From: an uncultured Flaviramulus sp.
GTDB lineage: Bacteria; Bacteroidota; Bacteroidia; Flavobacteriales; Flavobacteriaceae
Direction: 5' to 3'
DNA length: 64,000 nt
NCBI GenBank assembly: GCA_947501105.1
Contig: CANMUP010000004.1
Location: 62,001 to 126,000 of the forward strand
Position numbers and translations under genes: made by a program. The notes beneath the pieces were generated by a model. The model was not told where the DNA came from, searched no databases, and worked only from the letters and a program-made list of their open reading frames with translations. The first letter of the stretch is position 1, and each line of letters opens with the position of its first letter. Shown in pieces: positions 36,187-48,533 of the stretch.

Positions 36187-38262
36187 ATGAGGAAAATAAT
36201 TACGTTAATTATATTTTTATCTGTATGCTCTGGGTTTGCTCAAACTGAAGAGATAGATAGTCTTTCCATACAATTAGCTTATGAGAACCAAGATAGCTTA
36301 AAAGTAGATACTTCTCTTAAACTCATAAAATCCCTTTACGAGTTAAATGATTATGATAAAGCGATAAAATATATCATACTAAGTGAAAAACTCTCAACTG
36401 ATCTTAACTACCATAAAGGCATTGCCGAAGTAGCATATTATAAAGCCCTAATTTATGCTCAAAAAAATGATTATATAAATGCTGTTAGTGGATACGAAAA
36501 GGCTAAAGCTTTATTTCGTCAATTAAACGATGCGCTTGGGATAGCAAAAGTTAACAATAGCATTGGGTTATTAGAAATTAAACGTGGAAATTATGCTAAA
36601 GGGTTACAATACTCTTTATCTGCAATAGAAGAATTAGAAAAACGTAATTTCACGAACGAGCTTAAACTTTCATACAGTAATTTAGCCAAAGCTTATTACA
36701 ACATTAATGCTTTTGATAAAGCCGTTGAATACTACCTAAAAGCTTTAGAAATACAAGAACAGTTAAATGATGTAGCTGGTATAAATGAATCTAATAGCTA
36801 TTTAGCTGAATTATATTCTACAAAAAAAGAGCACAGAAAAGCTATTGAATATTATGAAAAAGTGCTAAATAGTGTCGGTACAAATAACGATTCTATTCGT
36901 GGAAGTGTTTTTCCGAAATTAGGAGGTGAATATTTAAAGTTTAATGATTATGAACAGGCCACTAAATATTTAATACAAGGTTATAATTTAAACATAAGAA
37001 GCAAAAATAAGCCTAGTTTATTAACAGTTTTAAACAATCTTGGAGATCTAAACTTACAACAAAGAAGGTTAATTTTAGCCGAAAAACAGCTATTAGAAGC
37101 AGGAGCTATTGCAAAAGAACTTAATAACAAAAATGAGTTATTAAGGCATTATAAATTAATGAAAGCCCTAGACTCGACTAAAAGAAGGTGGGATAGAGTT
37201 GTTGTTTGGCAACGCGAGTATTTTAAATTAAAAAATGAGCTAAACAAAAATAGTATAAGTGTAGATTTAAGCACCAATGAAATTCCTAAACTTGAGTTAG
37301 ATCCTAATTTTGATAAAGAAGTAACAAAGCCCGATAATACTGAAACTGAAACTACAAATACTGTTACTGTTACAGAAAACAAGCAAAAATTTGATAGACT
37401 TAAGTTGATTTTTTATGCACTATTAGCTGCACTAGCTATAGTATCTACTTTTTTAATAATGATTTACTTAAAACGAAACAGTAGTATAAAATACACTCAA
37501 GAGCTTGAGGAAAAAAATATAAAAATTCAATTACAAAATGAAGCTTTTCAAGAACAAACAAAACATCTTGAAAACGTTAATAATGTAAAAGACAAGTTAT
37601 TCTCTATTGTATCTCACGATTTAAAAGATTCGTTATCCTCAATTAATGGTTTTATAGATTTACTAAAAGATGGCTCTCTCTCTCGAGAAGAATTTGATAA
37701 TTTAATTCCTGAGTTAAGCGAAAATGCAAATAGTGCGTCTTTGCTATTGTTTAATTTACTAAACTGGTCTAAATCTCAAATGCATTCGCTAGAGCCTAAA
37801 CCAAGTTTGTTTGATGTACAAGAAGTTTTTGAAGATAAAGTTAAGTTAGTCGAGCAACGTATGGAAAACAAAGGCATTACACTCGTAGATCGTTCGTTAC
37901 GCGATTTTGCATATGCCGATAGAAGTATGTTTGAAATTGTTATCCAAAACTTACTAGCAAATGCCTTGAAGTTTAGTAAAAATGGAGACACCATTACCAT
38001 TTCTAATCATATAAGTAATGGCAGTTGTATTATTAGTGTTGCCGATACTGGTGTTGGTATTTCTAAGCAAAATATAGAAAAGCTTTTTAAGAACAATACT
38101 TTTACTACTATGGGCACAAATAATGAAAAAGGAACAGGGTTGGGTCTTTCTATTTGTAAAGAGTTAATCGAGCTTAACAATGGTAAAATTTGGGTAGAAA
38201 GTACTCAAAATGTTGGTAGTACGTTTTATGTCCAATTACCAAAATCTAAACCATCTACATAG
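36187..38262 (+). CDS. TPR-containing sensor histidine kinase
   Basis: 691 residues. A signal peptide (1-18, ending SGFA) is followed by about seven tetratricopeptide repeats (roughly 40-350; for example AYYNINAFDKAVEYYLKAL) in the periplasm. A Thr/Glu-rich linker and one membrane helix at about 408-430 come next. The cytoplasmic part has a coiled coil, the HisKA box SIVSHDLKDSLSS with His477, and an HATPase domain with NLLANALKF (N box), ADTGVGIS (G1) and GTGLGLSICKEL (G2). No receiver domain and no adjacent response regulator, so its partner is elsewhere. TPR kinases of this type are frequent in Flavobacteriia; the signal is unknown. Confidence 0.93.
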   Translation: MRKIITLIIFLSVCSGFAQTEEIDSLSIQLAYENQDSLKVDTSLKLIKSLYELNDYDKAIKYIILSEKLSTDLNYHKGIAEVAYYKALIYAQKNDYINAVSGYEKAKALFRQLNDALGIAKVNNSIGLLEIKRGNYAKGLQYSLSAIEELEKRNFTNELKLSYSNLAKAYYNINAFDKAVEYYLKALEIQEQLNDVAGINESNSYLAELYSTKKEHRKAIEYYEKVLNSVGTNNDSIRGSVFPKLGGEYLKFNDYEQATKYLIQGYNLNIRSKNKPSLLTVLNNLGDLNLQQRRLILAEKQLLEAGAIAKELNNKNELLRHYKLMKALDSTKRRWDRVVVWQREYFKLKNELNKNSISVDLSTNEIPKLELDPNFDKEVTKPDNTETETTNTVTVTENKQKFDRLKLIFYALLAALAIVSTFLIMIYLKRNSSIKYTQELEEKNIKIQLQNEAFQEQTKHLENVNNVKDKLFSIVSHDLKDSLSSINGFIDLLKDGSLSREEFDNLIPELSENANSASLLLFNLLNWSKSQMHSLEPKPSLFDVQEVFEDKVKLVEQRMENKGITLVDRSLRDFAYADRSMFEIVIQNLLANALKFSKNGDTITISNHISNGSCIISVADTGVGISKQNIEKLFKNNTFTTMGTNNEKGTGLGLSICKELIELNNGKIWVESTQNVGSTFYVQLPKSKPST

Positions 38263-38291
38263 AGTTTTAAGTTAAGCCTTTTTATGTATTT

Positions 38292-38375
38292 GGGCGTTAC
38301 CTAAAGGTCGGGCTTTCCGTTACAATCTTTTTGCTCGTGCCTCACAAAAAGGATTTCCTCTGCAATCCCTAACGC
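38292..38375. repeat. REP-like palindromic intergenic element
   Basis: An 84-base element of distinctly higher GC than its flanks, in the convergent gap between the TPR kinase and ctlX. Outer arms GGGCGTTA (38292-38299) and TAACGC (38370-38375) are complementary over six pairs. Inner arms CTTTTTG (38327-38333) and CAAAAAG (38345-38351) close an 11-base loop. Elements of very similar sequence are, from memory, scattered through flavobacterial intergenic regions. It could serve as a bidirectional terminator. It contains no coding frame. Confidence 0.65.
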
Positions 38376-38389
38376 AACCTATTTGCAAG

Positions 38390-39325
38390 TTAATTTTTAG
38401 TCAAAAACACTTCAGCCATCATACAACGGGCACTACCTCCACCACAAGCCTCAATAGTATCTAAAGAACTAGACAGTATTTTAGAGTGCTTTTCTAGCCT
38501 TTCAATTTGAGATGTAGTTAACGAATCGTATGCAGCCTGACTCATTATTAAATACAATTCATCATTAATTCCTTTTACCTGTAGCATATTACCAGCAAAA
38601 TTGTTAACCTGAGCTTCGGTAATGTCTATAACCTCTTTATGGTTTTCTTTTAAATGATTGATAACATTTTTACGTTCTTTTTTATCATCAATGCTATCTA
38701 AACAAATAACTGCAAAAGTTTCACCTAAACACATCATAACATTAGTATGATAAATAGCCATACGATCACCATTGACTGTTTGATTCGCCGTAAAAACAAC
38801 TGGTGTATATTCAAAATCTTCGCAAAATTCGATAAATAAATCTTCATCAGCACGAGGTGATAGAGCACAATATGCTTTTCTGTTTACTCGATCTAACAAC
38901 AAACTTCCTGTGCCCTCTAGAAACACACCTTCATCTTCAGCACTTGTATAATCGACTATTAGGTTAATTAAAAAGCCTTCTTCTTCTAACTGAATCAAAA
39001 TGTCTTCACGCCGTTCTAAACGTCTGTTTTCAGCAAACATAGGATATAAACCAACATTTCCATTTTCGTGAAACGATATCCAGTTGTTAGGAAAAATAGA
39101 ATCTGGTGTATCAAATTCTTTAGTATCATTTACAACCACCACATTTACACCAATACTCCGTAGTTTTTCAACATATGCATCAAACTCTTGTTGTGCTTTT
39201 GTGTTAACCGTTTCTGGCAATAAATTATCAATTACTTTTTGGTAATAATTGTTTACAGCTGTTTGCTCATTCATCCTAAAGTTTATAGGGCGAATCATTA
39301 ATATGGTATTTGTTGTTTGTTGCAT
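38390..39325 (-). CDS. ctlX: Citrulline hydrolase CtlX (guanidine-modifying superfamily)
   Basis: 311 residues. The N-terminus ILMIRPINFRMNEQTAVNN, the PDSIFPNNWISFH block with the substrate Asp, and the C-terminal GGGSARCMMAEVFL with the catalytic Cys301 follow the CtlX family, relatives of arginine deiminase described from Francisella. It would hydrolyse citrulline or a similar ureido or guanidino compound. A second amidinotransferase-fold gene lies 1.6 kb upstream on the same strand, separated by a sulfatase gene. Confidence 0.88.
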   Translation of the reverse strand: MQQTTNTILMIRPINFRMNEQTAVNNYYQKVIDNLLPETVNTKAQQEFDAYVEKLRSIGVNVVVVNDTKEFDTPDSIFPNNWISFHENGNVGLYPMFAENRRLERREDILIQLEEEGFLINLIVDYTSAEDEGVFLEGTGSLLLDRVNRKAYCALSPRADEDLFIEFCEDFEYTPVVFTANQTVNGDRMAIYHTNVMMCLGETFAVICLDSIDDKKERKNVINHLKENHKEVIDITEAQVNNFAGNMLQVKGINDELYLIMSQAAYDSLTTSQIERLEKHSKILSSSLDTIEACGGGSARCMMAEVFLTKN

Positions 39326-48415: not shown

Positions 48416-48533
48416 TTTAAATTGTTTTTAAGAGTGATTATGAATTAAGGTCTTAATCTTATCCTTCGATAATCATTTTATCTCTTGTTGATACTTGTTA
48501 ATTAATTATTTTTCAGTTTGCAAATTTATGCAA

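Follow-up and report, generated by a model that had tools for sequence, protein, structure and literature searches.

The Element between Two Convergent Genes

The window, as we call the whole 64,000-nt stretch of DNA analyzed here (from an uncultured Flaviramulus sp., genome G000), contains a short palindromic element in the spacer between two genes. The ORFs on either side run toward each other, which agrees with the convergent setting given in a first-pass annotation of the sequence. The nested inverted repeats described in that annotation are present as well, GCGTTA pairing with TAACGC on the outside (the P1 arms of Table 1) and CTTTTTG (38327–38333) with CAAAAAG (38345–38351) on the inside. 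The GC content of the element (46% at 38294–38377) is likewise higher than that of its flanks, with 30–33% on the left (38000–38293) and 29–42% in windows on the right. The Rfam model RF01705 (Flavo-1) matched the minus strand at 38302–38384 with 53.5 bits and an E-value of 8.9e-09, which is above its gathering score of 42 bits. The element is already known, as Flavo-1. The annotation had stated that such sequences lack an agreed name or function; the name exists, and no function is agreed. Elsewhere in the window an S4-Flavobacteria ribosomal protein leader (RF03141) was matched at 48436–48474 on the minus strand with 51.5 bits.

Table 1. Features at the window locus, core motifs, and sites compared between genomes. 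Plain positions are those of the window; other positions carry their genome, contig or locus.
Feature	Position	Strand	Basis or remark
Flanking gene, reads as TPR-type sensor histidine kinase	36187..38262	+	ORF; named from the protein, without search
Complete shell element, P1 to P1	38294..38375	Flavo-1 strand = minus	sequence; shell scan (100293-100375 of G000:C4); RF01705
P1 3' arm, TAACGC on Flavo-1 strand (GCGTTA on plus)	38294..38299	-	pairs with 38370-38375
P3, small variable hairpin CCTTTAGG	38300..38307	-	sequence
P2 3' arm, CCC	38310..38312	-	sequence
Core I (Flavo-1 core), part replaced at other sites	38313..38366	-	site comparisons
Apical stem-loop CTTTTTG ... CAAAAAG, GAGGYACGAG-type loop	38327..38351	-	sequence
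P2 5' arm, GGG	38367..38369	-	sequence
P1 5' arm on Flavo-1 strand, GCGTTA	38370..38375	-	sequence
Flanking gene, reads as amidinotransferase / arginine deiminase-like	38390..39325	-	ORF; named from the protein, without search
Core II, GTTGRAGCTC ... GCGACT			
Core III, TGTTTGAGCTC ... AGCGAGTAG			
Core IV, GCTTTTGGCGAG ... GAGCCAAAAC	L049, L055		similar one in L042
Core replaced, G000 vs G002	G000:C1:548498, C1:722471		
Apical loop replaced, G000 vs G002	about C1:786130, C1:801545, C1:828442, C4:174989		
P3 replaced, G000 vs G002	C1:931020, C4:381471		
Core I subtype and its loop replaced, G000 vs G002	window site		
146-bp palindromic repeat, arms	L058 27/144, 910/1027, 2556/2673		

Copy Number and Distribution

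The recurrence in flavobacterial intergenic regions that the first-pass annotation had described was borne out. RF01705 gave 56 matches in the host genome at E ≤ 0.001, 45 of which, including the window copy, lie above the gathering cut-off, and it gave 17 to 75 matches in each of the related genomes G001, G002, G003, G019, G035, and G040. A single copy without relatives, the outcome that would have spoken against the annotation, did not occur. With stricter filters the distribution was patchy, with 1 to 65 matches each in 32 of 60 genomes covering the host, its genus, family, and order. A pattern scan of named genomes, with a pattern that fixes part of the 5' arm, returned at least 119 stretches with a Flavo-1-type element; the 80 of these that were listed come mostly from Flavobacteriales, and a few from metagenome-assembled genomes (MAGs) labelled Treponema, Spirochaetaceae, and Pseudopedobacter.

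The MAG labelled Treponema (G060; the label was taken as given) held at least 150 RF01705 matches, 150 of its 770 candidates having been scored and all of them matching. The MAG labelled Spirochaetaceae had nine. From the former, a sample of 20 contigs picked for having matches plus four earlier loci (L393–L412, L203, L214, L248, and L255; 310,587 bases, 55.4% GC) contained 36 starts of the Flavo-1 core and 48 starts of the surrounding helices, hereafter the shell, 46 of the latter with a 3' arm. The P3 hairpins at these 48 starts were hypervariable and mostly self-complementary, several core types were found, and another palindrome often lay immediately upstream. Several RF01705 matches of this MAG were near contig ends. 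The Flavo-1 core was also matched on four contigs of a viral collection (L413–L416), and a Paraclostridium plasmid was hit once, weakly (70 of 100 bases at 77.5%, E 5e-4).

Fold and Preferred Strand

Copies read on the Flavo-1 strand can be folded by eye into a three-way junction of P1, P2, an inner helix, an apical stem, and P3. P1 is GCGTTA/TAACGC, and P2 consists of three pairs and one A-T pair beyond a mismatch. The inner helix has two pairs with A.G mismatches on its flanks, the apical stem is CTTTTT/AAAAAG, and P3 is a separate hairpin on the 3' side of the element. The three P2 pairs of the window copy are replaced in other copies by GCG/CGC, AGG/CCT, or GTG/CAC. The inner helix of the window copy contains one A.A mismatch; its P3 is the hairpin also found at the window site in the congener G002, and other copies hold long hairpins at that position. 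The fold energy of the window copy was unremarkable relative to shuffled sequences, with z-scores on the Flavo-1 strand of −0.17 (RNA) and −1.22 (DNA) and on the opposite strand of −0.87 (RNA) and −0.57 (DNA). As DNA, the single copy was matched by 20 of 200 shuffles that folded equally well, which is not significant.

Pairing across copies was close to perfect. A set of 89 distinct copies from the host and its relatives, defined by both arms fitting a regular expression, had 518 Watson-Crick pairs among 534 in P2 and the inner helix, compared with 329 on average and never more than 354 when partners were shuffled 1000 times. G-C and C-G, and T-A and A-T, are all common at the same pair, and such switches bypass a single G-U intermediate. 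The A-T pair of P2 in the 46 complete shells of the Treponema-labelled MAG was T-A in 32 and A-T in 14, and was never broken. The cells that are not Watson-Crick on the Flavo-1 strand were G-T in 19 cases and A-C in two (7:0 in the 89 copies above and 12:2 in a further set, which left out 19 of 122 starts as having no 3' arm by the expression). This 19:2 ratio makes the Flavo-1 strand the probable folding strand. G-T pairs were rare, making up 19 of 1152 cells; in 15 tRNAs from the stretches analyzed, an imperfect yardstick, they made up 20 of 322.

The covarying pairs were compared between the two strands in 65 copies that were complete and simple. They had the higher probability on the Flavo-1 strand in 62 copies with DNA parameters and in 52 with RNA parameters. 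The unpaired bases of the core are strongly conserved across copies, 14 of 81 starts being set aside in one of the sets examined because the expression gave them no 3' arm. Since related copies are not independent, the probabilities given here are indicative only.

A Common Shell around Several Cores

The shell was searched for by itself, with no constraint on the core, in 800 kb of the host genome and 1.1 Mb of two congeners, and the same P1, P2, and P3 were found around different cores. Because shuffled stretches also gave chance hits, 1 to 10 each compared with 7 to 20 in the real stretches, only copies with a P1 of a recurring kind were used. The repeat is wider than Flavo-1, its most frequent core: one shell (P1, P2, and a variable P3) is combined with at least four cores, labelled I (Flavo-1) to IV in Table 1. 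Exact patterns detected eight copies of core II and two of core III in the host genome. Core II occurred in 10 and core III in 4 of 37 genomes, and reversed control patterns occurred in none. Core IV copies were detected weakly by RF01705 (L042, 46.8 bits; L049, 39.0 bits; L055, 32.0 bits). Cores II and III had no Rfam match at gathering score in three 20-kb stretches (L113, L305, and L348), and a single 1.4-kb slice containing core III was without a match even at E-values up to 1.

The length of the element ranges from 82 nt at the window to about 180 nt in other copies. Several of the inserts in apical loops and in P3 are palindromic repeats in their own right, found again at other sites. 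The 47 of 56 host copies that could be parsed fell into groups of 10, 17, 9, and 11 when P2 (GGG or other) was tabulated against the loop (GAGG or other), indicating free assortment. A second shell, type B (TAGCCC ... GGGAAATAGC), has five copies in the host genome.

The Same Sites in Related Genomes

Sites of the host genome were aligned with those of its congener G002. Of the 22 sites tried, two (G000:C4:34939 and 53518) lacked a flank in the portion of G002 used. The remaining 20 were comparable: 18 occupied and one empty in one comparison, with flanks 85–97% identical, and one more, by separate alignment, giving 19 sites occupied in both genomes. The comparison started from host sites, omitting the RF01705 match at C4:5303, which the shell scan had missed; elements present only in G002 are uncounted, as at G002:C21:458040, where the host genome is too diverged. 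Judged by eye on the printed sequences, the modules were the same at ten of the 19 shared sites and differed at nine by a whole module, with shell and flanks retained. Cores, apical loops, P3 hairpins, and a core I subtype were all among the modules replaced (Table 1).

The more distant congener G003 allowed six of 11 host sites to be compared. One was empty, two retained type B copies, one (C1:722471) had core I plus an insert, one was decayed, and the sixth (C1:828442) had core IV and another P3. Because G003 shares core I plus the insert with G000 at C1:722471, the change to core II at this site went toward G002. The window site has four versions in four congeners. G000 and G002 hold two subtypes of core I, the apical loop in G003 contains an insert of 70 nt, and the version in G001 resembles core IV. 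Genomes of three other genera (G019, G008, and G016) have the same gene pair with only a short spacer and no element.

The two type B copies retained in G002 and G003 (L002 and L003; G000:C1:657159 and 683817) lie ∼26 kb apart in opposite orientation. One is flanked by apparent sufD and sufS genes and the other by genes for apparent tyrosine-degradation enzymes, all named from their proteins without a search. A type B-like pair in G019 was matched by similar spacing and scores only. Copies that keep their place in this way may have been put to use. Two pairs of sites with and without an element were aligned within the genus, and these strongly diverged pairs gave no clear target-site duplication or clean junction; the G002 gap in one of them holds another palindrome.

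Gene Context, Terminators, and Replication

Both neighboring genes were in view for 112 of 123 copies, those from named genomes being drawn from 80 of at least 119 loci. These copies lie between genes of the same direction (67), convergent genes (24), or divergent genes (21), and 111 are outside ORFs, with one inside an ORF. Their orientation relative to genes is near random, the right-hand gene being directed toward the element in 66 and the left-hand gene away from it in 63. A cis-regulatory leader RNA would occupy a fixed sense position upstream of genes, a placement that these 112 copies do not have. Where the right-hand gene ends at the element, the median distance behind it is 27 nt (host) and 52 nt (named genomes) for type A and 10 and 35 nt for type B.

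A bidirectional terminator had been suggested for the window copy at the outset. No terminator-like site was found in 37900–38700, where 0.5 was expected from shuffles. A terminator-like neighbor was detected by script for 7 of 54 host copies, 5 of 12 in G035, 2 of 11 in G040, and 3 of 7 in G048; the counts for G040 and G048 are unreliable because the boundary finder performs poorly on type B copies. Inspection by eye of G035, G040, and G048 had suggested insertion behind terminator T-tracts, an explanation that was abandoned as not general. Four G035 copies (L151, L166, L177, and L178) start, by eye, directly after an apparent terminator T-tract.

The copies showed no significant bias toward one replication strand (44 of 72, p 0.076), with the origin placed from dnaA, the terminus assumed to lie opposite, genome sizes rounded, and only contig C1 of G040 included. 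A link to replication forks is thus unproved.

Relation to RAYT-type Transposases

The first-pass annotation had further proposed a REP element moved by a RAYT. Its REP-like part stands, as the element is dispersed, intergenic, palindromic, multicopy, and patchy. Mobilization by a RAYT found no support. Across eight genomes, none of 28 Y1_Tnp matches lay within 1 kb of a listed Flavo-1 copy and two lay within 3 kb; 20 had such a copy on the same contig and eight had none on the contig. These distances refer to listed RF01705 positions, with cores II and III excluded. No Y1_Tnp match was present in G002 (44 Flavo-1 matches) or G019 (24 matches), or in 9 of the 20 genomes with at least five Flavo-1 copies. 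Copy numbers of Flavo-1 and Y1_Tnp were weakly correlated over 60 genomes (Spearman 0.37, p 0.003) and not significantly so in the 44 genomes of at least 2.5 Mb (Spearman 0.23, p 0.14).

The host genome has two Y1_Tnp matches, one of which is a RAYT-like protein of 190 amino acids. Its gene (L058:1414–1986) sits among three copies of a different palindromic repeat of 146 bp (Table 1), and the shell motifs sought in the 3.2-kb locus (L058:1–3200) were absent. The tags GTAG, GGAG, and CGTC, sought on either strand, were found close to the 5' end of only two and close to the 3' end of only one of 46 host copies. With co-occurrence, distance, and the RAYT-like locus of the host tested, RAYT was rejected as a general explanation.

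Discussion

We regard the window element as a copy of a dispersed intergenic DNA repeat built of nested hairpins with exchangeable modules, rather than as primarily a gene-regulating RNA, and assign this reading a probability of roughly 0.6. Its support comes from the number of copies, their compensatory pairing and single preferred strand, the near-random gene orientation, the patchy occurrence in related genomes, and the in-place replacement of inner hairpins. The shell of P1, P2, and P3 would enclose an exchangeable core, and the apical loop and P3 could each accommodate other palindromic repeats. When exposed during replication or repair, the Flavo-1 strand would fold as single-stranded DNA. 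The stems shared between copies may allow ectopic gene conversion or template switching among them; this could replace an inner hairpin and keep both of its arms matched. Such events would explain the matched arms, the scarcity of half-way pairs, the free assortment of modules, and the constancy of the sites. The copies themselves may have been spread by an older amplification. The conserved unpaired bases of the core count against a DNA repeat, because pure DNA mechanics has no need for them, and the place-keeping of type B copies could mean function. The two aligned pairs without a clear duplication or clean junction, the replication-strand count that misses significance, and the non-significant DNA fold of the single copy weigh on the same side.

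The two type B copies kept in three congeners and the conserved unpaired bases would suit a true structured RNA that is merely multicopy, be it a trans-acting sRNA or a 3' or intercistronic element of mRNAs. The Rfam type of RF01705 is sRNA, and the strong compensatory pairing, with G-T exceeding A-C on one strand, points the same way; this much of an early structured-RNA reading of the window copy holds, in that one strand folds. The near-random orientation to genes and the replacement of whole inner hairpins do not fit it, and on these two grounds a DNA-level element is favored. G-T pairs are also rare by the imperfect tRNA yardstick, and the RNA fold of the window copy is no better than that of shuffles. 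In Flavobacterium psychrophilum, Flavo-1 hits are reported to occur in sense as well as antisense orientation, and many of them fall outside the transcribed regions (PMC9723704). A structured RNA is on balance unlikely. Less credible still is a REP element mobilized on single-stranded DNA by a RAYT (Y1/HUH) transposase, which we judge improbable: the palindromic, dispersed copies, the one folding strand, and the weak correlation with Y1_Tnp counts would fit it, but the distances to Y1_Tnp matches, the genomes rich in copies and free of Y1_Tnp, the loss of significance in the larger genomes, the other repeat around the RAYT-like gene, and the scarcity of end tags speak against it.

Core exchange might instead be a site-specific cassette reaction in which a candidate recombinase recognizes the shell. 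The exchange boundaries at G000:C1:548498 and 722471 fall, by eye, at P1/P2, one shell is common to at least four classes of core, and the Treponema-labelled MAG has the same multi-core design. Against this, loops, P3, and core I subtypes change as well, as expected of ordinary conversion, and Y1_Tnp, the one enzyme class sought, yielded no candidate for it; we think such a reaction very improbable. The position of many copies close behind a right-hand gene and the terminator-like neighbors in the four genomes counted could point to a bidirectional transcription terminator or a stabilizer of mRNA 3' ends. This has the least to recommend it and is highly improbable, as the window copy has no terminator-like site around it and the copies are placed between divergent genes nearly as often as between convergent ones (21 and 24 of 112).

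The DNA repeat with exchangeable hairpins has a broader version, which we put forward only as a speculation with a modest chance of being correct. Flavo-1 would then be the most frequent insert in a platform of hairpin cassettes common to Bacteroidota and Spirochaetota, with a conserved shell of single-stranded DNA whose inner hairpins would be replaced as units at fixed sites, by a candidate enzyme or by hairpin-templated conversion. The near-perfect, RNA-like covariation would in that case be the product of a DNA process. If the DNA repeat is the correct reading, covariation by itself would be unreliable evidence that a multicopy palindrome works as an RNA, and the sRNA label of Flavo-1 misleads transcriptome work. 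The replacement of modules site by site between close species would make the copying and exchange of hairpins in bacteria directly testable.

Comparison with Known Systems

Flavo-1 has been classified in three columns that we take to be RNA, cis-regulatory, and switch. Its row in the table section of PMC2864571 reads "y n n", and a review places it under the most abundant sRNA families (PMC9029176). Several 5' transcribed regions of F. psychrophilum coincide with Flavo-1, with no real functional clue in the corresponding part of PMC9723704. According to PMC8040213, an RNA candidate that is palindromic may be a REP or a terminator. The window element has the strand and the inner structure of Flavo-1 RNA (RF01705; Weinberg et al. 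2010). The model covers core I, and core IV weakly, but neither cores II and III nor the position in the shell at which they are exchanged. RF01705 is listed for Bacteroidetes; the present matches extend to the Treponema- and Spirochaetaceae-labelled MAGs. A search of the open-access literature found neither a 12-base string of the shell nor the phrase "Flavo-1 RNA", and for flavobacterial palindromic repeats nothing fitting was among the matches listed. In the same literature we found no earlier description of the wider shell, of the in-place replacement of modules between species, or of the abundance in spirochaete-labelled MAGs.

MITEs and ERIC-like repeats are non-coding, palindromic, and patchy and carry internal insertions. 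The element shares all of these properties, and no target-site duplication was seen in the two aligned pairs. Its likeness to intrinsic terminators lies in hairpins behind genes, but the window copy lacks a GC-rich stem followed by a U tract. A likeness to attC sites, weighed by eye, was not adopted. REPs, as described in the sections of PMC3733652 concerned with them, are likewise short intergenic palindromes with many copies and variable loops; they measure 20–40 nt, whereas the window element has 82 nt and other copies reach about 180 nt. Unlike REP/RAYT systems, the element carries no end tag, no linkage to a RAYT was found for it, and its nested modules are replaced in place.
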